Source: an uncultured Ignavibacteria bacterium | GTDB lineage: Bacteria > Bacteroidota > Ignavibacteria > SZUA-365 | Direction of reading: 5' to 3' | Assembly (NCBI GenBank): GCA_913061095.1 | Contig: CAJXVM010000032.1 | Span: 1 to 40,425, forward strand | DNA length: 40,425 bases | Program-made: the position numbers and the translations under genes | Notes under the pieces: model-generated | Seen by the model: only the letters and a program-made list of their open reading frames with translations | Database searches by the model: none | Told to the model about the DNA's origin: nothing | In this document: positions 3,363-29,255 of the stretch, piece by piece | Position numbering within the stretch: position 1 is the stretch's first letter | Layout of the letters: each line of letters opens with the position of its first letter

Positions 3363-6300
3363 ATGATGACGCGGCCGCATCCTTCCATCACGGGACCGAC
3401 GTTCCCCGCGATCCTCGCGCTGACTTTTTTTCTTCTGATTCCATTCGCTTCCCTGCACGCGCAGCTTTCCGCAGCGTTCTCCGCGGACGCGGATTCCGGC
3501 GCCGTGCCGCTTGCGGTGCAGTTTTTCGACCAGTCAAGCCCGCAGGATTCCATCATCCTCCGCGCATGGGATCTCGACGGTGACGGCATCACCGACTCGC
3601 AGGAAAAAAATCCCCGCTTCACGTACGAGATTCCGGGCAGATACACGGTCACGCTGATCGTGGCCGACAGCAGCGGACGCGACACCGCACGTTATGCGGA
3701 TTACATCGAAGTCGCTCCCGTGCCCGATGACGAAATCGCCTGCAACATTCGCGTGGTGGAATACAGCGTCCCCATCGCGAAGTATGTGGAACTCTGGGGA
3801 TACGAAGGCAGCGGTGTTCCCGCGCCGATTGCTCCCGTCTCACTGCGCATGCCGCTCGATACGAACGGCTGCGCCTGCTTCTACCGAGGGAAATTCCTGA
3901 ACGTCCTCACGCAGAACATCACGGATCTGCTGATTCTGGATGAGAACTTCGATGTCATCGGGAAAACGGGATTCTCCTATCCCCTCAAGGATTTCATGGC
4001 GCAGCGACGCAGGGATGCCATCGTGATCGTGCACCGCGACCTGGTGTCTTTTCAGGACCATCCGCGCGAGCAGGCATCGATCGCGCAGTGGATCTATCCG
4101 AAATACGTGCGCTTCCCGTATCTGACCGACCAGCCGCTCGCGCCGCTTGCCGCCACGGGTGATGCCATTGCCGGGAAGCTGTACCAGACAACCATGCTCG
4201 TTCCACCGCAGTCCACCGACAGCGGCGCGGCCGGCATGGCGCAATTCCGGCTCGACAATGTGCGCCCGGACCGCATCCCCTTTGTGTTGCTGCACGGGCT
4301 GGGCGCCACCGACGGCGCCTGGGGCGCGGATACCGACATCATGACGCCCGCCGATACCGCAGCCGCGGATTTCAACGGCAGGCGCGACTATCCGTATACA
4401 TCCTACACCGGGCGCCTGCAGCGGTATGACCGCAATCACGCCGATCGCTTCGACGTGTGGGAGTATTATTATCCCCCGGATCAGCACTGGGAGGAAGCGG
4501 GCTATCTCTTCGCGCGCGACCTCGCGATGCTGCTCGACATGTACGACACCACGGTCGCGGCCGCCGCGGCACAGGGTCTGGGCGGACTCGTGCTGCGCTC
4601 CTATCTCGAGGGCACGGCGGAGAATTACACATCCTTCGCCGCTACCACCGGTCCGGCAGCGTATCGCGGGGACCTGTACAAAACGGTTTTCCTCGGCACA
4701 CCGCATGCGGGATGCCTCCGGGCGGGACTTGCATATGCTGCACCCGACAATGCGCCGGTGCAGGAGGTGATGGACCGGCGGGCTCCAGCGCTGCGCGCAC
4801 TGATGCCGGGCAATGATGCGTTGCTGCGTCTCGATCCCTCGGCAATGCCCGCCGGTGTTTCGGCATTGAACATCGCCGGCAGTGCGCCGGCCGTCGCGCC
4901 GCCACTGCCGGTGGAATCCGAGCTGCACGACGACGGACGCACGGCGCTGAGTTCCGCCATGCTGCCCGCTCCCCGCACGATCAATGCCGTGCTCGGCGGC
5001 TATGCGTACCGCGCCCTGCAGTCACCGGACGACCCCGGTGGAGATCTCGACGCGCCCGATCCGAATCTCATCCCCGAACTGCTGTATGCCTTCGCGCTCA
5101 GCGACACCACACTTGCGCCGTACCGGTCGCGTTTCCTCGAATACAATGCTCCGGATTCGCTGCGCTTTTCACAGGACGTCTATCAGCCGCCGTTCGCCCT
5201 GCCGCTCCGCGCCGATGTGGGGCTTCCGCTTGCACAGTTGCTCGTCCCACCCGGCGTGCCGTGGCCCGTTAACGGCGGGTTCCGGCTGAAGCTCGATCCG
5301 GTCAGCGGCACGCGCTTCCTTCTCCAGCCGTTCACGACGTTCGCGCAGCTGCAGGACGAAGGACTGTATTTCTATCCGTCGACGATGATGTTCTCCTCCG
5401 ATCCCGTTGCCGCGCAGTTCGGGACTGGCGAAACGGCATTCATCCCTGTGTCGCGGGCCGGCGCGCCACATCCGCTCCGCGCCGGCGCGGTGCAGCTGAG
5501 CGGGTACGGCTGGCAGCTGCCCCCGCAGCAGCAGACCATTCTTCCCGACCCCGTGATTGCGCGCACGGACGATCTCGGACGCCGCTTCAATCTCGCGCGC
5601 GCCGCCGGGGATCTGCGGCTTGCGTGGGGACGCGAAAAACGCAGCAGCTTCGCGCTCACCGGGCATGAGATCATGCTGCTCGATCCGTCGCAGCCGTTGC
5701 GTGCCGTACCCTCCGATCCGCAATCGCTGATACGGCTCGAGACGGACTGCCTGACGAAGGCGTTTACGTTCATCGTCGACTACAGTGGCTGCGGCGAACC
5801 CTCGCTTTCACTGCTTACACCATCGAGCGGAACGATCGATGCTTCGATGGCGAATGACAGCACGGTATTCTACACGAACAACACGAAGCTCCAAATGAAG
5901 GCGATCACGGTGATGCAGCCCGAGGAAGGATCATGGCTCGTGCTGCTTGACGGCGTCAGCAGAATGCCGTCGGGATGCCGCGCCGCGACGACCGTGGACG
6001 CCGGGCGGGAACTGCGCATCTCCCTGCAGCCGGCACAGCCGCTCAGCCGGGAGGATGTATCCGTGACGCTTCGTCTCGATCCGGGTGTCCCGCTGACGCA
6101 GGTCAATGCCAATCTCGTTCTCGTCGACAGCAGCGACACACGCACGTCGATTCCACTGCGCGATGACGGCCTCGCACCGGACACCGCGGCGGACGACGGT
6201 ATCTTTGCCGCGCGCTTCAACACTCCCCGTGCCGGACAGTACCGCCTTGAGGCAGTTTACGCGGCGCAGAGTGTGTCGTGTCCAATCCTGCGGACCGCCG

Positions 6301-8618
6301 CCATGCCGCTTGACCTCGAACCTTCGCTCGAACTCCTGCATCCCCGGGGCGGGGAGCTGTGGCAGTCGGGAACGGTGCGGCGCGTTCGCTGGCAGGGTGA
6401 GCGTCCGATGCACATCGCGCTCGACTTCAGTACGAACGGCGGAGCGAACTGGACGACCATCGCCGACTCACTGACTGCATCCGCGGGCGGCTGGGACTGG
6501 ACCATTCCCGATGTGACATCCGAACAGTGCCTCCTGCGTGTGCGCGACACCGGCGATCCCTCGCTCACGGACGTGACCCCGGAAGTATTTACGGTTTACG
6601 AAGAACCTGTCATCACGCTGCTCTCCCCCGACGGTGGGGAGTCCTGGCAGGTCGACACCGATCAGGAGATCCGCTGGGATGTCATCGCCGTATCAGCGAT
6701 CGATCTGTCGTATTCGACGGACAACGGGCGCAGCTGGCTGCCGGTCGCATCGAACGTACCGGCGGCTTCCGGCGCATATGCGTGGAGGATTCCGGTGACT
6801 CCGTCAGACAGCTGTCTCATGCGCGCCGTCAGTCACAGCGCGCCGTCGATCACGGATGCGAGTGATGCCGTCTTCCGCCTGACGCCGATTCCGGCCGTGG
6901 AGATGATCGCACCGAACGGCGGTGAGCGCTGGCAGGTCGGCACCGTGCATCGCATTTCCTGGCAGAGCGCCGCCGTCGACAGCGTGCGCATCGAGCTGAG
7001 CACCGACGGACGCACAAGCTGGCAGGTGCTTACCGCCGAAGCAGCGCTGACGCGTGAGTGGTTCTGGACAGTGCCCGATCGCGTCTCCGACAGCTGTTTC
7101 ATGCGCGTCACCGCGACCGGCGCACCGCAGCTCAGTGATGAAAGCGACGCAGCCTTTTCCATTACCCCTGAACCGTTTCTTACGCTGCTGGCGCCCGTGG
7201 GCGGGGAACGCTGGGAGATCGGGACCACCGAACAGATTCGCTGGGCCAGCGCCGGCATTACGTCGGTGGACATTGAATACTCAACGAACAACGGCCAGTT
7301 CTGGACGACGGCCGCGGTGAATATCGATGCCGGCCAGGGGCGCTATCTGTGGTCGGTCCCGCGCGAGCCGTCGGAGCAGTGCCGCGTCCGCATCAGCGAC
7401 ACCTTCGACAGCACGCGCGCCATGATCTCGCCGCAGACCTTCACAATCAGTGAATCGCTGACGCGCCCCACGCTGTACGCTCCCGTCAACCGCTCGGAAG
7501 GGGTTTCGACGCGCCCGCGTTTCCGCTGGCTGCCGTTCACCGACGCGGTGCGATACCATCTGCAGGTCACGCACGACCCGCTGTTCACGGTCTTCGTCAT
7601 CAATGACGAAAACGTGACCACCTCCACATTTCAATCCCCCGAACTGCTGCGCGAGACGAAGTATTACTGGCGCGTAAAAGCCACGCGCAATGACATGAGT
7701 GAAAGCGAATGGTCCGCCACCTGGGAATTCACCACAAGCGGCTCCTCGTTGGCCGCCCCGCGGCATCTATCTCCGCTCGACGGTTCGATTGGACTCTCGC
7801 GCGGTGTCAGCATCGCATGGGAATCTTCGGAGGGGGCCGATGCCTATCATCTGCAGATCTCCGCCGACGAGAATTTTCAGCAGCTTGTGACAGATCAGAC
7901 CGGACTGACGGGACTGACATACAGCGTGGAAGGACTGGATTACGCATCGGATTACTGGTGGAGGCTGCGTGCAGGCAACACCGGCACGACGGCATTCAGT
8001 GACTGGTCGCGCGCATGGAAATTCAGCACGGCGCCCGCTCCCCCGCGACAGCTGACGCCGCTCAACGGCTGGCCCGATCTGCCGCTGCGTCCCCTGCTGG
8101 TCTGGTATCCCGCGCCGAACGCCCGCGTATACCGCCTGCAGGTTGCCACCGACGACCGCTTCAATCCGCAGGACATCGTCTTCGATTCCAGCAATATCGC
8201 GGGAACGACCGTGCAGCTCCCCGGGCTGTGGAGTTACTGGGTGTATTACTGGCGGCTGAATGTCACGACGGCGCGCGGCACCAGCGAATGGAACGATCCG
8301 TGGATGTTCCGCACCGTCGACATCGGCACGGATGTGGAGGACAGCCCTGCGCCTCCCTCCTCCGTCCGTATCGACGGCGCATGGCCGCAGCCGGCCCGTG
8401 ATGCCGTCACCGTCGCGTACACAATTCCCGGCACCGCGGATGTTCACCTCGCGCTGTACGACCTGCTCGGCCGGCGCATCCGCGACTTCGGTCCGCAGCG
8501 CAGCGACGCGGGCGCCGTGCTGCGCACACTGGACATTTCCGGAATCAACACTGGGACATACGTTCTGCGGCTGACCTCCCCGTCAGGCAGTGCCGAGCGG
8601 ATGGTGCTTATTCGCTGA
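3363..8618 (+). CDS. Large T9SS-secreted mosaic protein with degenerate lipase-like domain
   Basis: A 1751-residue exported protein. A signal peptide (to about residue 34, ending HAQ) is followed by a PKD-like domain (35-115). An alpha/beta-hydrolase (lipase-like) region lies around 300-580, with an oxyanion-type LLHGLG segment near 308 and FLGTPHAG near 445. Next come a choice-of-anchor-X-like segment (about 895-966), four repeats of about 95 residues with the GGE(R/S/L)W...W signature (from about 988, 1083, 1178 and 1273), three fibronectin-III-like repeats (about 1368, 1465, 1559) and a T9SS type A sorting domain from about 1668 to the end. The nucleophile elbow reads AQGLGG at 403-408, so glycine 405 replaces the serine of GHSMGG. 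Catalysis is therefore doubtful and a binding or adhesion role is plausible. GGAG precedes two adjacent ATGs (3363, 3366). The protein is likely displayed on the cell surface; its partner is unknown. Confidence 0.85.
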   Translation: MMTRPHPSITGPTFPAILALTFFLLIPFASLHAQLSAAFSADADSGAVPLAVQFFDQSSPQDSIILRAWDLDGDGITDSQEKNPRFTYEIPGRYTVTLIVADSSGRDTARYADYIEVAPVPDDEIACNIRVVEYSVPIAKYVELWGYEGSGVPAPIAPVSLRMPLDTNGCACFYRGKFLNVLTQNITDLLILDENFDVIGKTGFSYPLKDFMAQRRRDAIVIVHRDLVSFQDHPREQASIAQWIYPKYVRFPYLTDQPLAPLAATGDAIAGKLYQTTMLVPPQSTDSGAAGMAQFRLDNVRPDRIPFVLLHGLGATDGAWGADTDIMTPADTAAADFNGRRDYPYTSYTGRLQRYDRNHADRFDVWEYYYPPDQHWEEAGYLFARDLAMLLDMYDTTVAAAAAQGLGGLVLRSYLEGTAENYTSFAATTGPAAYRGDLYKTVFLGTPHAGCLRAGLAYAAPDNAPVQEVMDRRAPALRALMPGNDALLRLDPSAMPAGVSALNIAGSAPAVAPPLPVESELHDDGRTALSSAMLPAPRTINAVLGGYAYRALQSPDDPGGDLDAPDPNLIPELLYAFALSDTTLAPYRSRFLEYNAPDSLRFSQDVYQPPFALPLRADVGLPLAQLLVPPGVPWPVNGGFRLKLDPVSGTRFLLQPFTTFAQLQDEGLYFYPSTMMFSSDPVAAQFGTGETAFIPVSRAGAPHPLRAGAVQLSGYGWQLPPQQQTILPDPVIARTDDLGRRFNLARAAGDLRLAWGREKRSSFALTGHEIMLLDPSQPLRAVPSDPQSLIRLETDCLTKAFTFIVDYSGCGEPSLSLLTPSSGTIDASMANDSTVFYTNNTKLQMKAITVMQPEEGSWLVLLDGVSRMPSGCRAATTVDAGRELRISLQPAQPLSREDVSVTLRLDPGVPLTQVNANLVLVDSSDTRTSIPLRDDGLAPDTAADDGIFAARFNTPRAGQYRLEAVYAAQSVSCPILRTAAMPLDLEPSLELLHPRGGELWQSGTVRRVRWQGERPMHIALDFSTNGGANWTTIADSLTASAGGWDWTIPDVTSEQCLLRVRDTGDPSLTDVTPEVFTVYEEPVITLLSPDGGESWQVDTDQEIRWDVIAVSAIDLSYSTDNGRSWLPVASNVPAASGAYAWRIPVTPSDSCLMRAVSHSAPSITDASDAVFRLTPIPAVEMIAPNGGERWQVGTVHRISWQSAAVDSVRIELSTDGRTSWQVLTAEAALTREWFWTVPDRVSDSCFMRVTATGAPQLSDESDAAFSITPEPFLTLLAPVGGERWEIGTTEQIRWASAGITSVDIEYSTNNGQFWTTAAVNIDAGQGRYLWSVPREPSEQCRVRISDTFDSTRAMISPQTFTISESLTRPTLYAPVNRSEGVSTRPRFRWLPFTDAVRYHLQVTHDPLFTVFVINDENVTTSTFQSPELLRETKYYWRVKATRNDMSESEWSATWEFTTSGSSLAAPRHLSPLDGSIGLSRGVSIAWESSEGADAYHLQISADENFQQLVTDQTGLTGLTYSVEGLDYASDYWWRLRAGNTGTTAFSDWSRAWKFSTAPAPPRQLTPLNGWPDLPLRPLLVWYPAPNARVYRLQVATDDRFNPQDIVFDSSNIAGTTVQLPGLWSYWVYYWRLNVTTARGTSEWNDPWMFRTVDIGTDVEDSPAPPSSVRIDGAWPQPARDAVTVAYTIPGTADVHLALYDLLGRRIRDFGPQRSDAGAVLRTLDISGINTGTYVLRLTSPSGSAERMVLIR

Positions 8619-8651: not shown

Positions 8652-10889
8652 TTATTTCCTGACCACCGCCAGCTTGGCCGTCGCGGCCTGAGAACCGTTC
8701 GGTGCGGCGGCAACGATGAAGTAGATGCCCGACGGGGCGTATTCACCATTCTGTGTGCGGCCGTCCCAGAAACCGACGCGGCCGCCGGGGGATTCAAGCT
8801 CGGCGACGAGATCGCCGGAGACGGACAGTACCTTGATGATTGAACCTTCCACGAGTCCGTCAATCATCACGCGTTCGTCGATGCCCGGGTGAAAGGGATT
8901 CGGCGCGATCAGCAGTTCCTCGAATGCCGTCACGGGCTCGACGTACGGCGTCGCCAGGCTCGACAGCCCACGGTTCGTGGCGATGTACATCACGCCGGTA
9001 CCGGGATGCACGACCATTGCCTGGATTTCATCATCGAGCAGCGGACTGTTGTCCGTGTCGTATTGCGCGATGATTTCGCTGCCGTCAGGTGACAGTACGA
9101 ACACGCCCTCTTTCGTTCCGATCCACTTGTTGTTGACCGGATCCACAGCGATGCAGGTGATATACTGTCCCTCGATGTTACAGCGCGTATTGAAGCAGGT
9201 TTTCGAAATACGGTCCGGTTCGCGGGGATTGAACACCGTGCGCAGCCCCCGGTCGGTACCGACCCAAACGTCGCCGAGCAGGTCCACCGCGACGGCGGTC
9301 ACAAGCTGATAGGCATTGAGAACATTCGCATCTGTTGCCGAAAGGCGCGTCCAGCGGTCGTCGCCCGCGATGGTGGGCGTATTGTTCGGATCCAGCAGCA
9401 CGACACCGCGGAAATCACCGTCATCGATGACGGACCACACTTGTCCGAACTGATCGACATCGAGCGTGACGACCTCGAGATCCACCGCGAGCGAGGGATC
9501 GGAAAGAAACTGCCACTGCCCGCCCGGGGTACGGACACCGAGCATGTTCGCCGGACCACGTTCATGCAGCGTCCAGAGATTACCGCGCTCATCGAAATGC
9601 AGTGCCTGCACCGCGGCGAAATCGGGTCCACCGGGCACACCCGGGAAGCCCGGCACATTTTCCGTATCGAAGAATTCGACCGTCCCATCCGCGTCGCGGC
9701 GGAATACGCCGCTGCCCCAGGTCGCGCACCAGACGGCGCCGCTGTTGTCTGCAGCTACACCCGTGATGGCATTGGTGACAATTTCAGGGTGGCTGCTTTT
9801 CGTGAAGTTCGTCCAGCGCTCACCGTCGAAGGCGTACATGCCGTTGCCCCCGCTGGCGAAGCCGGAGGCCGCCCACAACACGCCGTCGGCATCCACCGTC
9901 ATGTCGCGGATGAAGTTGGAGTTGGGTCCCTCGGGCTTTTCGAAATCCCAGGGCTGTCCTTCCTCAAATGTCGCGACGCCAATGTTGGAAGCGACGGTGA
10001 GCGCATCACCGTCAGCAGAGACATCGGTGAATTCGGAACCGGCGGGATACTGACCTCCCGCGATGGATTCACCGATCATCGTGACCATCGCGGCGCCATC
10101 CACGCGATAAAGTGCCTCCGACGTCAGCAGCAGGACGTCATCGCCGTCAGACTCGAGTGTGAGCACTTCCCCGCCGGGAATGGCGGTAAGAAATTCCTCC
10201 CAGCCGCCGTTGCGAAAACGATGCAGCGCCTGCTGCGTTGCGATGACCGGCTGTCCCGCAAGCTCCGCGATGCCCTTGACATCCCCGATGGCTTCGGACG
10301 TCCAGTTCTCGGGATCCTTGAGGTTGATGTTGTCGAGGTCACCGTACGCCACGCCTTCACTGGTGGTCACGAAGATGCGGCGTCCGCTGATCAGAATGCC
10401 GGACACCGGGATCTGTGCCGAAAGGCTGCCGAATTTCTGATAGCTGTCACCGAATTCCCGCCGGAGCGGATCGTACACAACCAGTCCGAATTCCGTGCCG
10501 ATGTACGCGCGTCCTTCCTGCATGAGAATCGTCGTGATGCCGCGCTGCAGGATTTCCGTGGTGCGTGCGATGTCGGTGACCGCGTACCACCCCGCCTCCG
10601 GATCCAGCACGTTGAGCATGCCGGTACTGGCGCCGGCGAAAATCCTGCCGTCAACGTCTCTTGCGATGGCAGAATACTCGATGGCGGAGAGCCCGTCGAC
10701 GTTGGTGAACCGCGAAAATTGTCCGTCCGGGTCGCGATGAAACAGTCCTCCGCCCGTGGCGGCCCAGATGCCATCCCCGGAGACGGTGATATCGCGGACA
10801 GCTTTCATGTCAGTATAGGTACGCCACGTCCCCACCTGCGCCCCGGCGAAGAAAGGCAGGCAGAGGAGCAGCAGGATGACGCGCATCAT
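8652..10889 (-). CDS. porZ: PorZ-like beta-propeller protein (T9SS attachment complex)
   Basis: The mature N-terminus (GTWRTYTDM..., then GDGIWAATGGGLF) and the 'two-component regulator propeller' repeats match the PorZ type. In Porphyromonas, PorZ is part of the PorU-PorV-PorQ-PorZ complex, which attaches A-LPS to T9SS cargo. The length, about 745 residues, is close to that of known PorZ (about 780). A signal peptide ends at GAQ. The C-terminus has a FlgD/T9SS-like Ig fold (PNPFHPG ... NGEYAPSGIYF). An in-frame ATG at 10904 exists, but AGGAG sits between it and the ATG pair at 10889/10886, so those are preferred. It is the last gene of the 12-gene minus-strand run, 22 bases after ribH, and converges with the large T9SS gene. 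The alternative is an ordinary propeller-type T9SS cargo protein. Confidence 0.7.
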   Translation of the reverse strand: MMRVILLLLCLPFFAGAQVGTWRTYTDMKAVRDITVSGDGIWAATGGGLFHRDPDGQFSRFTNVDGLSAIEYSAIARDVDGRIFAGASTGMLNVLDPEAGWYAVTDIARTTEILQRGITTILMQEGRAYIGTEFGLVVYDPLRREFGDSYQKFGSLSAQIPVSGILISGRRIFVTTSEGVAYGDLDNINLKDPENWTSEAIGDVKGIAELAGQPVIATQQALHRFRNGGWEEFLTAIPGGEVLTLESDGDDVLLLTSEALYRVDGAAMVTMIGESIAGGQYPAGSEFTDVSADGDALTVASNIGVATFEEGQPWDFEKPEGPNSNFIRDMTVDADGVLWAASGFASGGNGMYAFDGERWTNFTKSSHPEIVTNAITGVAADNSGAVWCATWGSGVFRRDADGTVEFFDTENVPGFPGVPGGPDFAAVQALHFDERGNLWTLHERGPANMLGVRTPGGQWQFLSDPSLAVDLEVVTLDVDQFGQVWSVIDDGDFRGVVLLDPNNTPTIAGDDRWTRLSATDANVLNAYQLVTAVAVDLLGDVWVGTDRGLRTVFNPREPDRISKTCFNTRCNIEGQYITCIAVDPVNNKWIGTKEGVFVLSPDGSEIIAQYDTDNSPLLDDEIQAMVVHPGTGVMYIATNRGLSSLATPYVEPVTAFEELLIAPNPFHPGIDERVMIDGLVEGSIIKVLSVSGDLVAELESPGGRVGFWDGRTQNGEYAPSGIYFIVAAAPNGSQAATAKLAVVRK

Positions 10890-10911
10890 GGAACTCCTGA
10901 GCATTGCGTGT

Positions 10912-12267: not shown

Positions 12268-13077
12268 CTATTCATCAAGAATGCGATAAATGACATAGCC
12301 CAGACCCACTTGGAGCAGCGCCAGGGAAATTCCTGCGTAAATATCGTACTTTTTCGTTTGAGATAGAAGCGATTCGTCGCCCGAGGCGAGGTAATCGTCG
12401 TAGAGACCATCGGCTTTCTGTTTGAAAATGACCGCGACGACACCTGCCGCAAGTCCGATCCCGGCGGGAAGCAGCACCGACGCCGGAGGGAGACGCAGTC
12501 CCGCGCTGCGAAATTCCACCTGCGCGTCGGCCATATCCTCCAGCGGTTCCAGAACGACAAGCTTTTCCTGACGCTCCGCGTCCGCGGGGTTCCAGTCGCT
12601 GCCGGCATATCCGATCGCTTCGATGCGCAGGGGGCCGGCATCGCGCGGGACCTGCAACGGCGTCACCCCCAGCAGGGAATCTCCGCGAAACACGCGGGCG
12701 CCGTGCGGCAGGGTGCGCAGTTGCACGCGCGCATCGAAACGGACGAGCACAACTCCCTGGTCCGCACGCAGCGGATGCTGCGGCAGCGCGCGCTGCTCCG
12801 CATCCCAGGCGAGACGCGCGGGATAAAACAGCCGGACGCTGTCCGCATGCCGCGCCATGATACGCAGGGGCGTGCGACCGAGCAGAGAGTCCCCGAGATA
12901 CACTTCCGCCCTGGACGGCTCCGAGGCGAGTTCGATCATCCCGGTGAGCGGCGGCTCGATCTCCTGCGCGGATACAGGTATGACAGCCGCGGTCAGCGCC
13001 GCGGTGAATGCCAGTGCGGCAATCATCGTCGCGGTGAAATTCAGCCGCGGACCACGACATGGCGTCTTCGTGTTCAT
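12268..13077 (-). CDS. PEGA-domain membrane protein
   Basis: A 269-residue protein with an N-terminal signal or membrane segment (about 17-38, ending SAQ). Two PEGA repeats follow, each with a VYLGDSLLG(R/V)TPL-like core (about 57-70 and 129-145). At the C-terminus there are two hydrophobic segments (about 200-216 and 247-264) around a charged loop rich in D, Y and K. PEGA domains are found in surface and S-layer-associated proteins; their ligand is usually unknown. Its ATG overlaps the stop of the BamB-like gene as ATGA, so synthesis of the two is probably coupled. A role as membrane anchor or sensor for the neighbouring propeller and barrel proteins is inference. Confidence 0.75.
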   Translation of the reverse strand: MNTKTPCRGPRLNFTATMIAALAFTAALTAAVIPVSAQEIEPPLTGMIELASEPSRAEVYLGDSLLGRTPLRIMARHADSVRLFYPARLAWDAEQRALPQHPLRADQGVVLVRFDARVQLRTLPHGARVFRGDSLLGVTPLQVPRDAGPLRIEAIGYAGSDWNPADAERQEKLVVLEPLEDMADAQVEFRSAGLRLPPASVLLPAGIGLAAGVVAVIFKQKADGLYDDYLASGDESLLSQTKKYDIYAGISLALLQVGLGYVIYRILDE

Positions 13078-14231
13078 TGTATGTCAACCATGTATGAATC
13101 TCCTTCTTCATCGATGAGGAGGATGCCACGCGATGTCATGATCGGCTGGGTTTCACTGCGCTCCGGCAGCTTCTGCATGCGTGTCACGTCGCCGGTTTTC
13201 ACATCCACGCGATAGAGCGCCCCCTTGCGCGCAAGCTGCCATGCATGACGCGAACCGAGCAGCGGTGATGCGCCGGGAAGTTCGCCGATGGATATGGAAT
13301 GCAGCGGTGTTCCGTCCGCAACGCGCAGCAGAAGAAGATTGCCGGATGCCAGTGGGATCAGCAGCCGGCCGTCACGGTGTGCCGGAGCATAGTATACCGG
13401 AGACCCCGTCTCATGTTCCCACGCGACGCTTCCGTCGTGGAGATCAACGGCCGTCACGACACCGCTGCGGTTCGCCGCGACGACAAGACCGTCGGCAATG
13501 ACAGGACCCGCCTGGATGGCGGAAAATGTGGGGACACGCCAGACCGTCGCTCCGGTCTCTGCAGAAAGTGCGATGATGTCGCCCGTCTCCGTGCCGACGA
13601 CGAGCAGCGTGTCGGCAGCCGCAGGCGCGGCGCGCACACTGCCTGTCACTTCCGATTTCCACACCTCAACCGAATCTTCAGGATCGAAGCGCACGACATG
13701 CCCGCGGATACCCGCGGTATAGACACTGCCCCCGTGCACACAGAGCGCTGCCTGGACCGGCTCGAACACGCGTGACCACTGCAGGCTGCCGTCACGCAGG
13801 CTGAAGCACAGCAGCGGCGACTCGCTTCCCACGGTGGCCACAAAGAGGCGGTCATCGAGAACAGCCGGTGTCGCCTCGATGAACCACTCACAGCTGAATT
13901 CGCCGGTTTTCTCCCCGTCCGAGAGCCGCACGGCCTCGACGGTCGCGCTGACAGAAGGAAGCAGAAGCATGTCGCCGAGCATCAGCGGCGCGGCGGTGCC
14001 CGCAGCCCCATCGAGTGAGAAATCCCACTCCTCGTCACCGCTGTTGCCAGCGGACATCGTATCGTCGGCGGACTCCTTCACGGCAAAGGAGCGGTCCGCT
14101 CCCCCGCCGAGCTGCGGCCAGTCGTCGGGGGACCGCTCGAACGGCTGATCCAGCCATGTGAAGGTGCCGCAGCCGGCAAACATCCACAGGGCGATCATGC
14201 ATCCCGCCGATATGATTCGATGCGCACGCAT
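13074..14231 (-). CDS. BamB-like PQQ-repeat beta-propeller lipoprotein
   Basis: A 385-residue predicted lipoprotein. The signal sequence ends in FAGC with the lipidation cysteine at C21. The rest is a beta-propeller of PQQ/pyrrolo-quinoline-type repeats: DIIALSAETGATVW, VVTAVDLHDGSVAW and several weaker blades. This is the fold of BamB, the lipoprotein that assists BamA in outer-membrane barrel assembly. A GTG start 12 bases upstream is possible, but the ATG at 14231 shares its first base with the stop codon of the barrel gene (TGATG), a classic re-initiation arrangement. The partner directly upstream is an Omp85-like barrel, so a BamA/BamB-like pairing is suggestive. It could also be a general PQQ-like periplasmic scaffold. 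Confidence 0.75.
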   Translation of the reverse strand: MRAHRIISAGCMIALWMFAGCGTFTWLDQPFERSPDDWPQLGGGADRSFAVKESADDTMSAGNSGDEEWDFSLDGAAGTAAPLMLGDMLLLPSVSATVEAVRLSDGEKTGEFSCEWFIEATPAVLDDRLFVATVGSESPLLCFSLRDGSLQWSRVFEPVQAALCVHGGSVYTAGIRGHVVRFDPEDSVEVWKSEVTGSVRAAPAAADTLLVVGTETGDIIALSAETGATVWRVPTFSAIQAGPVIADGLVVAANRSGVVTAVDLHDGSVAWEHETGSPVYYAPAHRDGRLLIPLASGNLLLLRVADGTPLHSISIGELPGASPLLGSRHAWQLARKGALYRVDVKTGDVTRMQKLPERSETQPIMTSRGILLIDEEGDSYMVDIQ

Positions 14232-17035
14232 CAGAAATCCCACCCGAAAAAGAACTGCTGGTACAGGCCATTCTGCAGCCGCGTAAAATTATCCTCGATA
14301 CGCTTGCCGATGTCGTAGCGCAGCACGAAGGCACCGAAGAGGCTGAGACGCAGCCCCCCGCCGATGCTGCCCAGGGTACTGCCGTATTCATCGTCCCACG
14401 AATTTCCAGCGTCGAAATACAGGGCGCCGCGCAAAAGACCGAGATTGATCGATCCGAAGGGGAAATCGAGTCCCACACGATCGAGGAGCGGGAAGCGCAA
14501 CTCGTGGCTGGTCAGCCAGCGCTTGGTGCCGCGGATACTCCACCGCGGCCATCCGCGCAGGTCCCAGCTGCCGCCGAGGAAGTACCGCCGCGCCTCCTTG
14601 CCGTGATTGTAGAGGAATTCGAAGCGGGTGGCATAGGCCGAACGCAGACTCAGACGGAAGTAGCGGCGGTAGTCGACCATGACGGAATAGTAGTTGACGT
14701 TCGAATAACGCAGGTCCGTGGTGTGCGAGAGCGTGAGGTTGAAACGGTTACCGTCGATCGGCCCCGTCCAGTAATACAATGCGTTGTCCTTGACGTACGA
14801 GATGGAATTGGTCAGCAGCAGCGCCTTGCGCTGACGGATTTCCGTGATGGCCTCCTTGTCGGAATTGCTGAAGCTGACCGCGCCTTCGATGCGGCGGAAT
14901 TTCGAGAGAGGATATGCCGCCGCAAAATATCCGCCATAGGCGCGTTCATTGAAATACAGATCGGGATCCAGCAGGTCGTAACGGCGCCCGGCATAGTGAA
15001 AAACCCCGTAGCTGTAAGGTGTTTTGCGTCCGAGCGACGTGCGCGATATCGCAAAGTTGAAACTCGAGAAGAATTCGCTCGATGTCTGCGCGGTGTTGTA
15101 CACGAGGAAATAATACCGGTCGTCGCCGAGCACATCGGAGACACTCAGGACGGCGCCACCCAGCGTGCCGAATACCGGATCGGTGGAAATGGCGCTCTGC
15201 GCGATGTCGACCTGGTATTCCTTTTCATACACGAGCGGCGAAGAAACACTCTCACCCTCGAGGCGCGGGATATCCCACGGTTCCGTGCTGCGGGGCAGAC
15301 GCCGCTGAAACACGGTCTGCAGGGAATCGAGCCGCGCGGAGACATCCTTCAGACCGAGGATTTTGAAGCTGAAGCCATCGTAGGCAGAGTACAGCAGTCC
15401 GCCCTCGGGAGTCCAGACGGGATCAAACGCTGCCGTGGTGTATCGCGAAACCTGGCGCACTGGCGGCAGCGCGGCGGGCTCCTCATCGACGGCGATGACG
15501 TAGATGTTGTGCGTGCCGTCGCGATCGGATGTGCAGACAATCGTACTGCCGTCAGTGGACCACGACGGCGCGGCGTAGCTGCAGCTGTCCTGCGTGAGAT
15601 AGCGCATGCCACCGTCCTCGAGGTCCAGCAGGTAGAGGTCGTGCACGCCCCGGCTTCCCAGCGGACCGCGATCCGAAGCAAAGACGATGCGTGATCCGTC
15701 GGGCGACCAGGCGGGATTGAGATCGTGATAATAATCGTCGGTCAGGCGGTCGAGCGAACGGTCTGCAATGTCGAGGATGTACAGGTCGCTTTCGCCGGCG
15801 CTGTTGAGCGCGGAAAAGACGAGGCGCTCACCGTCAGGAGCCCATGACGGCGAACCGATCATGATGATGTCATCGAAGGCCAGCGTGGCAGTAAGACGTT
15901 CCGCCCCCAGGTCGAAGAGATGCAGAACGTCCGTCGCACCGCTTTTTGTCACGAAGGCGAGCATGCCGCTGACACTTACCGACATCCCGCTTCTGAAAAG
16001 GGAAAAAGACTCATACGTCTCGCTCTTCTCGCCCTGGATGAGCTGCCGCGGCTCTCCGCCTGAAAGGGATTTCATGTATACGCCACTGTACCCGGTATTG
16101 TTGGCGATGTACACGACGTACGAGGAATCGCCCCGCTGATAGTACACCGGTTTGGCGTTGAATCCCGACGGCACAATGCTGCGGGCAATGTCGGACGGCC
16201 GGTCATGTGTCTCCACCAGCGGATAGTAGCGTTTCTTCACATCCCGCACCCAGGCGCGGTCGAATTCCTCGTAACTCATGTCGAGGGTGAATTTCATCAC
16301 GTCACTGAAACTCTCCGACACCCAGAAATTGTCGATCAACTGAATGATCTTTTCCTCCCCCATCGTACGCGCGATGAACTCCAGCGCATCCTGTCCCTCC
16401 TTGTACATCAGGAAGCTGCCACTGATCGCCCAGATACGTGAAAGCGGCGCAAAGTACCCGCTGAGCACGGCATCGCGCAGCACCATCTCCGCCTGGCTGT
16501 CCCATGACGTCGAATAGAATTCTGCGAGTCCCTCAACGAACCACAGCGGCAGGTAGCGGTTAGCGCGCTGTCCGTGCGAGCGCAGTACGTGCTCGAGCTT
16601 GTTGTGCATGAACACGTGCACGAGTTCATGGTTGATCACATGGCGGAACTGCTCCATTGATCCCTGGCTCGGAATCACCACGCGGCCCTTGAGGAATTCA
16701 AAGAAGCCGCCCACGCCCTCGGGGATGAATCCCGGCGTGACGTTAGTCTGCTGAAAGTGAATGGGCGAACTGTAAAAGATCAGCGGGATGCGGTAGCGGA
16801 TGGTGAAGTTGAACTTCCTCTCGAGCTCATGGAAGCTCTCCTCTGCGAAATGCGCTCCCCGTTCGGCCAGCTCCTTCATTTCGGGATAATAGTAGATGTC
16901 GAAATGCTCGGTACGCAGAATGCGCCAGTCGAAATCCGTATAGGCGATCTTGTTGCGACCGAAAGGAAGGAACTGCGCACTGGCGGTCAGGGGCATCAGG
17001 AGCGAAAACAGAACAGCCATCAGAAGCATACAGCG
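14231..17035 (-). CDS. Metalloprotease / TolB propeller / Omp85-like barrel fusion
   Basis: Three parts are visible in about 934 residues (GTG-start numbering). After a signal peptide ending SAQ comes a peptidase-MA-like gluzincin domain with HELVH at 136-140 and a downstream E168 in WFVEGLAEFY. Then there is a TolB/WD40-like propeller (about 290-600) with repeated (S/N)P(A/S)W(A/S)PDG and FAS blocks. The C-terminal region (about 630-934) looks like an Omp85/BamA barrel, with an LRGW motif near the end of GGSWDLRGW and a terminal GWDF like a beta-signal. The start is uncertain. A TTG at 17125 overlaps the upstream isomerase by 11 bases but gives an over-long signal N-region, GTG at 17035 gives a normal one, and ATG at 17029 is also possible. 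It is coupled to the next gene by TGATG. Surface or outer-membrane processing is inferred. Confidence 0.8.
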   Translation of the reverse strand, partial: RCMLLMAVLFSLLMPLTASAQFLPFGRNKIAYTDFDWRILRTEHFDIYYYPEMKELAERGAHFAEESFHELERKFNFTIRYRIPLIFYSSPIHFQQTNVTPGFIPEGVGGFFEFLKGRVVIPSQGSMEQFRHVINHELVHVFMHNKLEHVLRSHGQRANRYLPLWFVEGLAEFYSTSWDSQAEMVLRDAVLSGYFAPLSRIWAISGSFLMYKEGQDALEFIARTMGEEKIIQLIDNFWVSESFSDVMKFTLDMSYEEFDRAWVRDVKKRYYPLVETHDRPSDIARSIVPSGFNAKPVYYQRGDSSYVVYIANNTGYSGVYMKSLSGGEPRQLIQGEKSETYESFSLFRSGMSVSVSGMLAFVTKSGATDVLHLFDLGAERLTATLAFDDIIMIGSPSWAPDGERLVFSALNSAGESDLYILDIADRSLDRLTDDYYHDLNPAWSPDGSRIVFASDRGPLGSRGVHDLYLLDLEDGGMRYLTQDSCSYAAPSWSTDGSTIVCTSDRDGTHNIYVIAVDEEPAALPPVRQVSRYTTAAFDPVWTPEGGLLYSAYDGFSFKILGLKDVSARLDSLQTVFQRRLPRSTEPWDIPRLEGESVSSPLVYEKEYQVDIAQSAISTDPVFGTLGGAVLSVSDVLGDDRYYFLVYNTAQTSSEFFSSFNFAISRTSLGRKTPYSYGVFHYAGRRYDLLDPDLYFNERAYGGYFAAAYPLSKFRRIEGAVSFSNSDKEAITEIRQRKALLLTNSISYVKDNALYYWTGPIDGNRFNLTLSHTTDLRYSNVNYYSVMVDYRRYFRLSLRSAYATRFEFLYNHGKEARRYFLGGSWDLRGWPRWSIRGTKRWLTSHELRFPLLDRVGLDFPFGSINLGLLRGALYFDAGNSWDDEYGSTLGSIGGGLRLSLFGAFVLRYDIGKRIEDNFTRLQNGLYQQFFFGWDF

Positions 17036-24012: not shown

Positions 24013-26115
24013 CTATCGCATGGCGACGGACTGTGTTTCCTGGAATTTCGCGAGGCCATCCTTGAGGAAGCGCACGAATTCCTGCGGCTTGCGCGTCATG
24101 CCGGGGAAACTGCTGATCTTCTCGCCGTCGGAATCGAGGGTCACGTACAGCGGAAGGGCGACCGTGCCGAAACGCGCCTCCTGGAAGTCGCGGTTGCGTT
24201 CGTATACTTCACCCTGGCCGTCGGTATACAGACGAACAAGCACGTAATCCCGGAACAGCTCCTGTACATCCGGACGCGGGAAGATATTTGATTCCATCCA
24301 GCGGCAGTTCGTGCACGCGAAGCCGGTGAAATCCAGGAATACCGGCTTGCCCTCCTGCTGCGCCGCCTTCAGCGCCGATTCGTAATCCGAGAACCATCGT
24401 TCCTCCCCGTGCAAGGCAGCCGCATCCCCATGCGATGACGCCGTCTCCCCGCCGGTGCTCATCCCGGCGCCGGTCATGGAGCCCATCGATGCCGCCTGGA
24501 TGGCCTCCTGGTAATTCATGGGCGGCAGAAAGGCGTCAAGCTCCCCGAGCGGCTTGTCGTTGAGTCCGGTGTAGAGATACACCGAGATGCCGAGGAAGAA
24601 CACGCCCCACAGCATGCGCACGACGCCGACTTTCTCGATAGGACTGTCATGCGGCAGCTGGAACTTGCCGAGCAGGTACACGGTGATGAGGATGCCGATA
24701 CCGACCCAGAAGCTCAGGAAGAGATCGCGGCTGAGAATGCCCATGCTCCAGATCAGGTCGACGTTGGAGAGGAATTTCATCGCGGCCGCAAGCTCGAGAA
24801 AGCCCATCACAACCTTGACCGAGTTCAGCCAGCCGCCGCTCTTCGGCATGGATTTCAGCCATGACGGGAAGAGGGCCAGGAGGAAAAACGGCAGTGCGAA
24901 TACGCTGGAGAACGCCAGCATGCCCACGACGGACCACCAGATTTCGCCCTTCGCCGCGGCAACCATGACGGTGCCGACAAACGGCACGGTGCAGGTGAAG
25001 CTGGTCAGTGTGAACGTGAGACCCATCAAAAGCAGGCTCGCGATCCCCTGACCGCTGCCCGAGGCCACGGTCAGTTTCGTGAGAATGCCCGACGGCACAA
25101 CGATCTCGAACAGTCCGAAGAGGTTCAGCGCGAACACGATGAACACCAGGGCGATGAGGATGTTCATCCACGGGTTCGCCGCGAATTGATTGATCCCCGA
25201 CGCCCCGAAAAGCAGGGCAAGCAATATCCCCAGTCCGGTGAAGGTGAAGATGATGCCGAAGGAATAAATGGACGCGTCGCGCACGGACTGCAGCCGTGTC
25301 GCGGCTTCGCGCTTGGTGAAAAAGCTCACGGTGATCGGGATCATCGGGAAGACGCAGGGCGTCAGCAGCGCCAGCGCGCCGACCGACATCGCGAGCCCGA
25401 TGTAGGCCCAGAGTCCTTCCTGCTTGGCTTTCTCCACGTCGGCCTCGTCGCCGTAGCCGAGTGATTCTTCCTCGCCCTCCGCTCCGGCCTCCGCGTCCTC
25501 CGCGGCAGCCTCGTCGGCAGCACCGGCGTCGGTCCCCTCAACGGCAGCGAGATCCTCGCCATCCGTTTCGCCGTTTTCCCCGGCCGCGGCCATGGCGCTC
25601 TCATCGGCGGCCTGCTCCGCGGCAGCCGCAGACGCGGCTTCCACGGTGATGTCGATGGGAACCTCGACCGTCTTCGGCGGCAGGCACATGCGGTCGTTGC
25701 AGGCCATGAACGTCACTTCCACGACGGCCTTCTGCTTCCCGGGCTTCGCATCCTTCTTCACCGTGCCCGTCACCGTGAACGTGACATCCTCTTTGAAATA
25801 CTCCGTTTCGATACCGAATGCCTCGTCGTATTTCACCTTGGGCTTCGGCTGCCGGACGCTCCCCTTGCGGGACAGCGGCGCATCCGCGGCGAAGGTGATG
25901 TCCGTCGGCACCGGGCCCTCCTCCTTCGGAGTCGTGGAGTAGATATACCAGCCCTCATTGACATCGGCAGTGACCTTGACGTCCACCGTGCCACCGGCTT
26001 TCACCGTTGTGCTGACCGGCTTCGCGGACCAGGTCGCGGCTTCCTGCGCGTGAAGCTGCATGCTGAATATCGGAAGGAGAATTGCGAGCAGAGGGAGGGA
26101 AAGCAGTCGTTTCAT
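24013..26115 (-). CDS. dsbD: Thiol:disulfide interchange protein DsbD
   Basis: DsbD carries electrons from cytoplasmic thioredoxin to periplasmic thiol proteins. After a signal peptide (1-24) come the N-terminal DsbD domain with C139 and C144 (MACNDRMC), a highly acidic Ala/Glu/Asp/Gly linker (about 160-233), a CcdA-type membrane domain of about eight helices with C254 (LTPCVFPMIP) and its partner in SFTCTVPF, and a C-terminal thioredoxin domain with C601-T-N-C604. All three redox pairs are present. An upstream TTG at 26157 is rejected because ATG 26115 starts a normal signal peptide and a candidate promoter lies between 26159 and 26189. LptD is encoded just upstream. Confidence 0.93.
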   Translation of the reverse strand: MKRLLSLPLLAILLPIFSMQLHAQEAATWSAKPVSTTVKAGGTVDVKVTADVNEGWYIYSTTPKEEGPVPTDITFAADAPLSRKGSVRQPKPKVKYDEAFGIETEYFKEDVTFTVTGTVKKDAKPGKQKAVVEVTFMACNDRMCLPPKTVEVPIDITVEAASAAAAEQAADESAMAAAGENGETDGEDLAAVEGTDAGAADEAAAEDAEAGAEGEEESLGYGDEADVEKAKQEGLWAYIGLAMSVGALALLTPCVFPMIPITVSFFTKREAATRLQSVRDASIYSFGIIFTFTGLGILLALLFGASGINQFAANPWMNILIALVFIVFALNLFGLFEIVVPSGILTKLTVASGSGQGIASLLLMGLTFTLTSFTCTVPFVGTVMVAAAKGEIWWSVVGMLAFSSVFALPFFLLALFPSWLKSMPKSGGWLNSVKVVMGFLELAAAMKFLSNVDLIWSMGILSRDLFLSFWVGIGILITVYLLGKFQLPHDSPIEKVGVVRMLWGVFFLGISVYLYTGLNDKPLGELDAFLPPMNYQEAIQAASMGSMTGAGMSTGGETASSHGDAAALHGEERWFSDYESALKAAQQEGKPVFLDFTGFACTNCRWMESNIFPRPDVQELFRDYVLVRLYTDGQGEVYERNRDFQEARFGTVALPLYVTLDSDGEKISSFPGMTRKPQEFVRFLKDGLAKFQETQSVAMR

Positions 26116-26158
26116 GATGCTGTCGGATGGTAAGTAGCGAAAAATTCGTTCAATCAAT

Positions 26159-26189
26159 GAATAATACGAAGTTCCATCACCAGCGACAA
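26159..26189 (-). promoter_or_regulatory. Candidate promoter of dsbD
   Basis: On the minus strand TTG (26189-26187), 20 bases, then TATTATTC (26166-26159). Spacing fits the Bacteroidetes form but the downstream element matches TAnnTTTG only partly. It would give a leader of roughly 38 bases before the ATG at 26115. The gap between lptD and dsbD (26116-26262) shows nothing else. Confidence 0.3.
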
Positions 26190-26262
26190 TGACAAAACGG
26201 CGTATCGCTGTATATGATGCAGCAGGGATGCAGGATGATTCAAATTTGAAGGGTGTACGGGA

Positions 26263-29085
26263 TCAGTACACGCCACGATCACTGCCGCGCTTCTCGAGTT
26301 TGATATCCTTGAGCTGCGGCGCCTTGAGACGGATGACAAAGAAGAAGCTGCGATAGGTGCCGGCGGGCACCCACTGGAAATCCATCTCCCAGCAGTGCAG
26401 ATCCTTGCGGATATTGATCGACGGCGCCCCGAGTTCCTTGTTGACGATATCGTAATAGCCGCTGACGGTGAAATGCCATGAGGGCGTCAGACTGAAGGTC
26501 AGGTTGGTGCGGAGATTCGAGTTGCGCGACTCCCGGGAAGGATTGAAGCGCGAGACACGGTAATCATATCCGAGTGAGAGATTCCACGGGATGCTGAAAT
26601 TGTACGGGGCCTTCATGTCGATCGGACCGCTGCGAAGGCTGTCGTCTTCCGATTCGCTCTCCATGCCTTCCTCTTCATCCTCTCTGTCCTTGCTCTCGAA
26701 CATCGTACTCGACAGGCGCGTGTTGAGACTGATATCAAAGGAAGTCAGCCGCCCGAGTCCCTGCCCGGCCTCCCATGCATAGCGTGGCGTTTCCCTTCCG
26801 GTGATGACCGTGCGTTCGCCGTCGTCCCCGATTACGGCACGATCGGGAATGAATTCGTATGGAGAGAACGTGGCCCCGCCCCGCAGTTCAATCAGATTCT
26901 GGATGCTCGTGCGGTAACTGAGATTGAGATTCCCGAGCCGCATGCTGTCTTTGACGAAGTTGTAATTCGTCGAGGCATCGAGCGTGAAGAGCTGCACTTT
27001 CCGCGGCGTTTCCGTGGTATCACTTTCGAGCGGATCGAGTTTCATCTCGAAAATATTCGAAAGGCGGATGCCCATGGTCTGGGATTCGCCGGATCCGACG
27101 CCTCCAAACACTTCGCCCGGCCGGTAGCTGAGCCCGGTGTATGGATCATAGCGCACATCCTGCCCGGTGCTGTCGGTATAGCTCTGATAATATCCCCACG
27201 ATTCTTTCGAAAAATCCGGATTCCAACTGTAGCTGACCGACGGCTGCAGCGTATGGCGAAAGCCGATGATGCCGAGCGCGTTGGGCTCGAACATGCCGTA
27301 CAGCTTGGTGCTGGCACTCAGACTTGCGTTGAATGTCCGCAGAGCGAAGAACCCGCTCACGTCCCGTCCCTCGACCTCGCGCCGCTCCTCGTTGAAAAAG
27401 CGCTCGGTGCGATGATCATACCAGCGCTCGGTGTAGGTGAAGCTGGGTGAAATCGTGAAATAGCCGAACTTCGGCGTGGAAATCAGACTCAGGCGGTGCT
27501 CGAGTCCGCGGCGATCGAAACGCTCCTTGTTCGTTGACAGCGTATCGATCGCAGGATCGAAGCGCGTCACCTCATCGATATCGATGCGATTGAGAAACTG
27601 CCCGGAATAGCTGAAGCCAATCATCTCATACCAGGCCTGCTCGCCGAAACCGCCGTCGCCGCGGAAGGGATAGATCTGCGACTGGTTGAAGCGGATGTTC
27701 GGGAGCGTGGTCGTTGACGTTCCGTCGACAAGATCCTGCTCGCGTTGCAGTCCGACCGAAATGCTCCGGTTCGTTCCCTCCCAGGATTTCGAATACGAGG
27801 CGCTCGAACGCGCGGTGGTTTTCAGCAGCTCATCGATGTTGGTGCTGAAGCTGTTGTAATAGGACTGCGTGACGATGTTCACATCCGCTGTGATGCGCGA
27901 GGTCGGATCGATTTCCTGGTTGTGCTGAATCTTCAGGCTCCATTCGGTGGCGGGTTCGTCGTCAGGACGCGAGACATTGCCGATCAGGAAACGCTGACGT
28001 CCGTAACTGCCGGATATCGATCCCGAGAAATTGTAGCGCAGGGCGTAGCGCAGTTCGGCGCGCGCCAGCCAGCCGCCCTTGGAGAACCAGTCACCGGTGA
28101 GCGCGAGATCCCAGTAATCGCTCGCCGCGAGATAGTACCCGCCGTTTTTCAGATAGCGGCCGCGGCTCTGATCGAAGCCGAAGGCAGGAAAGATGATGCC
28201 GGAACTGCGTCCCCCGCTGCTCGGGATCACGGCAAACGGGAGCCACAGCAGCGGGATGTCTTCGACGTAAAAGGTGATCGGACGCGCAACGACGATCTCG
28301 TCGGGCACGAATTTCATCTGCGCGGAGCCGAAGTAATAATGTTTGTGGTCGGGATTGTCGCAGGTCGTGTACCGTCCGCCGGCGATGAAATACTCGTTCT
28401 CCGAGACGCGCTTGATGCGTTCGCCGAGGTAGAATCCGTCATCGATGGCGGTCTCTCCCTTCGTGATGACACCCTTTTTCGAGCGGAAATTGTATGTCAT
28501 CTCCTCGCCGGTGTACTCTTCGGTACCTTCCTTGAATACCGGCGTGCCGATCATGCCGCGACCCTCCGCGCTGGTATCCGCGATTCCATGCGCATCAATC
28601 GTCGATGCGTCCCAGTTGATCGTGATCCGCGCCGCACGCACGGCCGTTGCGCCGTAATCGATGCTCCCCTTCTCGTACATGTTCATTTTTTTCTCGTCGA
28701 GCAGGTATATCACCGAATCCTGCGCGCTGTAGGTGATGATGGTATCCACCTCGTTGCTGACGGGAAATATTACCGTGCTGTCTGCGGCGAGGGCGAGTGA
28801 ATCCCTCGCGAGCCGGAGAGAATCCTGCATGACGAGCAGCAGGCTGTCTTTCTGTGCCTTCGTCAGGTTGCGGCGCGTGGTATCGATCGCCGTCGCTTCA
28901 ACGGCCCCCGTTTCCCCTGCACGCTGCGCTGCCGTGTCGATGCGCGCACCGTCACCCGGCTGCGCGGTGCCGGACTGCACGGCAGCGGTATCCTGCCTCG
29001 CGGTGCTGTCGGTCACGACCTGCGCGGCCAGGACACCGGGAAGAAGAAAAAACGCGAGCAGTATGGCGCAGCGGACGGATATCAC
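26263..29085 (-). CDS. lptD: LptD-like LPS-assembly outer-membrane protein
   Basis: LptD inserts LPS into the outer leaflet. About 940 residues: a signal peptide (MISVRCAILL... to AAQ), a low-complexity segment rich in T, A, D and Q (about 23-105), a LptA/OstA-like beta domain (about 115-240) and a long beta-barrel region. The barrel region has the family's DIPLLWLPFAVIP and GRSSGIIFPAFGFDQSRG segments. The mature protein has exactly two cysteines, C242 (YTTCDNP) and C898 (LHCWEMDF), which could form one N-to-C disulfide, as the long-range disulfides do in E. coli LptD. The ORF extends upstream to a TTG at 29208. The GTG at 29085 is preferred for the signal peptide and because a TACCTTTG promoter element lies at 29161-29154. 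dsbD follows. Confidence 0.85.
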   Translation of the reverse strand: MISVRCAILLAFFLLPGVLAAQVVTDSTARQDTAAVQSGTAQPGDGARIDTAAQRAGETGAVEATAIDTTRRNLTKAQKDSLLLVMQDSLRLARDSLALAADSTVIFPVSNEVDTIITYSAQDSVIYLLDEKKMNMYEKGSIDYGATAVRAARITINWDASTIDAHGIADTSAEGRGMIGTPVFKEGTEEYTGEEMTYNFRSKKGVITKGETAIDDGFYLGERIKRVSENEYFIAGGRYTTCDNPDHKHYYFGSAQMKFVPDEIVVARPITFYVEDIPLLWLPFAVIPSSGGRSSGIIFPAFGFDQSRGRYLKNGGYYLAASDYWDLALTGDWFSKGGWLARAELRYALRYNFSGSISGSYGRQRFLIGNVSRPDDEPATEWSLKIQHNQEIDPTSRITADVNIVTQSYYNSFSTNIDELLKTTARSSASYSKSWEGTNRSISVGLQREQDLVDGTSTTTLPNIRFNQSQIYPFRGDGGFGEQAWYEMIGFSYSGQFLNRIDIDEVTRFDPAIDTLSTNKERFDRRGLEHRLSLISTPKFGYFTISPSFTYTERWYDHRTERFFNEERREVEGRDVSGFFALRTFNASLSASTKLYGMFEPNALGIIGFRHTLQPSVSYSWNPDFSKESWGYYQSYTDSTGQDVRYDPYTGLSYRPGEVFGGVGSGESQTMGIRLSNIFEMKLDPLESDTTETPRKVQLFTLDASTNYNFVKDSMRLGNLNLSYRTSIQNLIELRGGATFSPYEFIPDRAVIGDDGERTVITGRETPRYAWEAGQGLGRLTSFDISLNTRLSSTMFESKDREDEEEGMESESEDDSLRSGPIDMKAPYNFSIPWNLSLGYDYRVSRFNPSRESRNSNLRTNLTFSLTPSWHFTVSGYYDIVNKELGAPSINIRKDLHCWEMDFQWVPAGTYRSFFFVIRLKAPQLKDIKLEKRGSDRGVY

Positions 29086-29153
29086 AACCTGCTTGTACTC
29101 ATGGGTGGGAGGGCAAGTTCCGGTGGGACGGAATTTCCCGTGACAGTATCGGA

Positions 29154-29161
29154 CAAAGGTA
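29154..29161 (-). promoter_or_regulatory. Candidate -7 element upstream of lptD
   Basis: TACCTTTG on the minus strand is an exact match to TAnnTTTG and lies about 70 bases before the GTG start at 29085. No TTG is found at 19-21 bases upstream, only a TTTTC tract at about 22, so the call is weak. It also argues against the TTG start at 29208. Confidence 0.3.
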
Positions 29162-29255
29162 CGAAAACGCCGCCTGCGAGGGAAAACGCATTCCCGTGTC
29201 TCATGCAATTTGTGTATGTTTCAACCATTCGAGAACCGGGACGCTTCCTGAGCAC

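Follow-up and report, generated by a model that had tools for sequence, protein, structure and literature searches.

In the building of outer membranes by Omp85 proteins, the POTRA arms are believed to be the part that receives the clients. Heinz and Lithgow introduced the name WD40-Omp85 in 2014 (PMC4104836) for a subfamily in which a TolB-like propeller replaces the POTRA domains, an arrangement that they likened to a BamA-BamB fusion. The text of that survey makes no mention of a protease domain or of operon partners for the subfamily, and its 'Metallo' Omp85 subfamily was defined by another domain, PF00149. In our literature searches for a combination of protease, propeller and Omp85 barrel, this survey was the only paper found. 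The core of the Bacteroidota BAM complex, BamADGH, was described only recently, and BamB is not mentioned in the text of that description (PMC12611786). BepA is a Zn-metallopeptidase that acts at the BAM complex (PMC8423444).

The locus studied here consists of three overlapping open reading frames, all confirmed on the minus strand of the window (the whole 40,425-nucleotide stretch of DNA that was analysed) and called the trio below. The features discussed in this paper are the following.

8652-10904, minus strand: PorZ gene (NF052228, 365 bits, cut-off 260)
12268-13077, minus strand: gene 3, with a signal peptide, two PEGA repeats and a C-terminal two-helix membrane hairpin (Pfam, alignment A3, hydropathy)
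12280-12492, minus strand: hairpin segment of gene 3 with the conserved pattern G..K..AD..Y..D (alignment A3, hydropathy)
13074-14231, minus strand: gene 2, a BamB-like lipoprotein (PQQ_2/BamB)
14171-14169, minus strand: lipobox Cys of gene 2
14231-17029, minus strand: gene 1, a protease-propeller-barrel protein of 932 aa from the ATG at 17029
14234-15217, minus strand: C-terminal 16-strand Omp85 barrel of gene 1, ending in GWDF (model, VIA, Pfam)
14552-14557, minus strand: Arg-Gly pair, invariant, in the loop-6 motif LRGW of Omp85 proteins (alignments, DSSP strands)
15329-16189, minus strand: six-bladed TolB-like beta-propeller of gene 1 (VIA match to E. coli TolB)
16190-16933, minus strand: predicted gluzincin (clan MA) domain of gene 1 (separate model, pLDDT 82.4)
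16534-16532, minus strand: Glu codon, candidate third ligand in the gluzincin domain
16630-16616, minus strand: HELVH, the zinc-peptidase motif of gene 1
24013-29208, minus strand: DsbD-like and LptD-like genes, upstream of the trio

Compared by architecture, gene 1 resembles the WD40-Omp85 proteins in that a TolB-like propeller precedes the Omp85 barrel and POTRA domains are missing, and differs from their published description in its protease domain and operon partners. The sequence-only reading had held that known systems keep TolB/BamB propellers and BamA barrels on separate chains, a claim contradicted by the 2014 subfamily. Its proposal of an undescribed machine is partly supported: the fusion of propeller and barrel was already known, whereas descriptions of the protease arm and of the co-inherited partners seem to be lacking from the searchable literature. 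With BAM (BamA and BamB) the trio shares an Omp85 barrel and a PQQ-propeller lipoprotein, but gene 1 lacks POTRA domains, has a protease and a propeller added to the chain that forms the barrel, and occurs in a genome that also holds a separate BamA candidate. The patatin-Omp85 protein PlpD likewise joins an enzyme domain to an Omp85 barrel; its enzyme is a different one, and gene 1 has in addition a propeller and conserved lipoprotein and membrane partners.

The longest frame of gene 1, taken mechanically, opens at TTG 17125. The ATG at 17029 is the likely start, because it opens a signal peptide ending in ASA/QF, and the mature chain comprises 914 residues from the Q at 16975. An earlier span reaching to 17035 thus had the gene in the right position and its start about two codons off. 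The stop codon of gene 1 and the ATG of gene 2 have one base in common (TTC-TGATG, 14233-14229), and the stop of gene 2 overlaps the ATG of gene 3 as ATGA (13077-13074), so that the coupling noted earlier can be read in the sequence at both junctions. Gene 1 was modelled with AlphaFold2 on 56 orthologues (mean pLDDT 83.5, pTM 0.79), and structure matches were obtained by VIA comparison of the gene 1 models against the PDB. Each domain was backed by this modelling and comparison; together with Pfam, they agree with the sequence-only reading that one polypeptide holds a gluzincin domain, a TolB-like propeller and an Omp85 barrel ending in GWDF.

Modelled alone, the N-terminal domain gave the M30 peptidase lugdulysin as its best match (Z 16.5, 235 residues, rmsd 4.2), followed by M9 collagenases and M1 aminopeptidases, with Z of 13-16.5 for the top matches. 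The Pfam match to Peptidase_MA_2 was below threshold in gene 1 itself (0.0036), and the same model matched 28 of 32 family members (best 2.4e-14). The predicted fold, the HExxH motif and the downstream Glu together place the domain among the gluzincins. These residues (H166, E167, H170 and E198) are intact in all 57 orthologues, which come from many families, and selection on catalysis is therefore likely, as judged from the alignment. Membership of the M48 family, alongside BepA, was dropped, since Pfam gave no M48 match in gene 1. The fold matches listed were M30, M9, M1 and M61. The resemblance to BepA is one of idea only, that of an HExxH zinc peptidase at a site of outer-membrane assembly (PMC8423444).

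The propeller aligned with E. coli TolB over 242 residues (Z 26.8, rmsd 2.3), PDB profile matches to TolB reached 5e-18, and PD40 repeats were above the Pfam cut-off (2.7e-22). Orthology to TolB was rejected, gene 1 scoring 120.6 bits against the 343.15 of the equivalog model TIGR02800; the two share six blades, but in gene 1 the propeller shares its chain with a barrel and a protease. The AlphaFold2 model revealed 16 barrel strands in mature residues 587-912, which matched D. radiodurans BamA over 303 residues (Z 22.0, rmsd 4.4), so that the barrel fold supposed for the C-terminal third was found there. Pfam Omp85 was also above its cut-off (1.5e-9, 38.3 bits against 24). The LRGW sequence fits the loop-6 motif [VIL]RG[FYW] and lies between strands 11 and 12, its Arg-Gly being invariant in alignments A1 and A4, and the last residue of the protein is an invariant Phe. 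Barrel, loop-6 motif and Pfam score assign gene 1 to the Omp85 superfamily. In the model a linker of about 30 residues joins the propeller to strand 1 and the extracellular loops are short; because of the barrel topology and these short loops, the gluzincin domain and propeller would by default be the periplasmic part.

The two partner genes also turned out as the sequence-only reading had described them, namely a BamB-like lipoprotein and a two-PEGA membrane protein. Gene 2 matched PQQ_2/BamB in Pfam (3.9e-31) and its lipobox Cys is kept throughout (51 of 51); it scored 114.8 bits with the BamB equivalog model TIGR03300, below the cut-off of 285.2, and BamB orthology was rejected on this ground. 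The PEGA domain of gene 3 (PF08308; 7.1e-7) scored 29.5 bits against a cut-off of 20.8 and was matched in 13 of 20 relatives. The hairpin segment, recognised by hydropathy, is what stays constant in gene 3 from one lineage to another, and in family f13 the PEGA repeats are absent and the hairpin alone is left.

To follow the trio across the phylum we used a sample of 148 genomes, in which a full-length orthologue was defined by an E below 1e-200. Gene 1 orthologues were present in 35 of them, one copy (G055) being split over two contigs. Gene 1 and the lipoprotein gene were same-strand neighbours in 34 of these 35 genomes, an adjacency far beyond chance; in G039 it lies on another contig than gene 1. 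Lipoprotein matches above 186 bits all came from orthologue genomes, with none in the 113 genomes without a gene 1 orthologue; the profile was built from neighbours of gene 1, which could favour co-occurrence, but unlinked lipoproteins outside the profile still matched with 331-342 bits (G039 and six genomes of a split clade). In that clade, in which gene 1 stands alone, the lipoprotein was present in all 6 genomes tested, and each time a gene-3 homologue (77-89 bits) came after the lipoprotein gene. Gene 3 was not detected in loci L047-L049, L051 and L062 or beside the lipoprotein gene of G039. The co-occurrence of the three genes in other genomes is therefore upheld, gene 3 being usual though less strict. 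Families f15 and f21 kept the trio while their flanking genes changed, and the trio is thus more conserved than its surroundings. L058 (bacterium SM23_31), with a broken gene 1 frame, gave the sole hint of a range beyond the phylum. As the three genes are inherited together in many bacteria of the Bacteroidota group, they very probably encode a genuine envelope machine, a widespread module that seems to be unstudied. We also observed, at L089:4520-6723 in G039, a BamB-like gene followed by an acyltransferase-like gene with an ATGA overlap, and then by a glycosyltransferase-like gene.

A quick tree with SH-aLRT support only divided the phylum's proteins of this three-domain architecture into four clades, one of which, with full support, is the trio type. 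The other three clades occur in many genomes without the trio. The clade of L071-L074 and L086 has lost all HExxH residues and kept the architecture, and is by its sequence a pseudo-protease branch. In the window's genome a second three-domain protein of 1109 aa is encoded at C2, while C5 holds a canonical BamA candidate, separate from these proteins and 842 aa long; no protein of this genome was above the TolB equivalog cut-off. A probable third protein of the protease-propeller-barrel type was also picked up there by the Omp85 and TolB models (G000 C21:44809-46707, a frame of 1054 aa).

Downstream of the trio in the window lie PHP, ribH and PorZ, and the order trio-PHP-ribH-PorZ was found in 17 loci, including the distant f13, outside the window's class. 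Many relatives have a CRP/FNR-type regulator gene between the trio and PHP (L040:10872-11555, L047:10195-10878), which is absent from the window. Two predicted cargo proteins of type IX secretion (T9SS) with C-terminal sorting domains are encoded at 3363-8618 (plus strand) and 39337-40299 (minus strand). We considered a linkage to LptD, which lies about 9 kb upstream and suggested an analogy to BepA and LptD, and rejected it, as the LptD gene was on other contigs or far off in 21 of 21 other genomes. The trio as an obligate part of the T9SS was rejected as well: every one of the 35 orthologue genomes has SprA, yet so do 82 genomes that lack the trio.

We tentatively prefer to regard the trio as one envelope complex that acts as an accessory factor of outer-membrane assembly and quality control, built on a POTRA-less Omp85 protein with its own proteolysis. 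The location, physical association, clients and protease role that we infer for it are these. The gene 1 barrel would sit in the outer membrane, with the gluzincin domain and propeller in the periplasm at the place of POTRA; the BamB-like lipoprotein would be anchored below the outer membrane beside the barrel, and the hairpin of gene 3 would lie in the inner membrane with the PEGA repeats reaching upward. The propellers may bind or present outer-membrane clients, the barrel seam and loop 6 may aid a subset of them, and the protease may trim or remove those that stall. The trio would then work like BamA, BamB and a BepA-type peptidase, while being made of distinct proteins. We prefer this reading because the loop-6 motif is invariant, the genome has a further BamA candidate and the lipoprotein is inherited along with gene 1; given the separate BamA candidate, the trio would be an addition to BAM. 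Counting against it are the lack of POTRA domains, and with them of the usual docking surface for BamB; the pseudo-protease clade, whose retained architecture implies that proteolysis is dispensable for some such proteins; and the loci in which gene 3 was undetected. A bolder form, possible but rather doubtful, is a dedicated outer-membrane machine apart from BAM and TAM, whose protease-propeller arm in place of POTRA would insert and proteolytically mature a set of surface proteins in bacteria of the Bacteroidota group; its own lipoprotein and inner-membrane partner, working with gene 1, belong to this same doubtful proposal.

Other explanations assign the barrel a different task. The fusion of an enzyme to an Omp85 protein recalls PlpD (discussed in PMC4104836), and with the active site intact gene 1 might be a surface protease whose barrel exports its own gluzincin-propeller part to cut surface or environmental proteins, as was proposed for PlpD; this is unlikely, given that the co-inherited lipoprotein and hairpin protein suggest a stationary complex, that the loops and the linker to strand 1 are short, and that the dead-protease clade retains the architecture. 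The barrel could instead be a mere anchor in a Tol-like trans-envelope tether, with propeller, lipoprotein and hairpin protein attaching the outer membrane or signalling across the periplasm. TolB as the best propeller match, the genome without a protein above the TolB cut-off and the membrane hairpin of gene 3 are consistent with such a role, which we nevertheless regard as quite unlikely, because a passive anchor would not need an invariant loop-6 motif and gene 1 itself misses the TolB cut-off.

The gene neighbourhood is the basis of the remaining two. An accessory role in type IX secretion, in which the trio and PorZ would serve the delivery of T9SS cargo or anionic LPS, agrees with the 17 loci that include f13 and with the presence of SprA in every orthologue genome; however, many genomes with SprA and PorZ lack the trio, PorZ is elsewhere in most sampled orthologue genomes, and G058 has the trio with no PorZ match, so we consider this role improbable. 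Least probable is that the complex moves or inserts glycolipids and not proteins. The LptD- and DsbD-like genes upstream in the window and the acyltransferase- and glycosyltransferase-like genes adjoining the unlinked lipoprotein gene of G039 point to lipid or LPS handling, against which stands the missing LptD linkage in the 21 other genomes.

In this widespread Omp85 subfamily, a propeller and a zinc-protease domain, the latter intact, stand in place of POTRA; a lipoprotein is strictly co-inherited with the subfamily, and a membrane-hairpin protein usually so. The trio is a testable candidate for a second route of outer-membrane assembly or quality control in the phylum.
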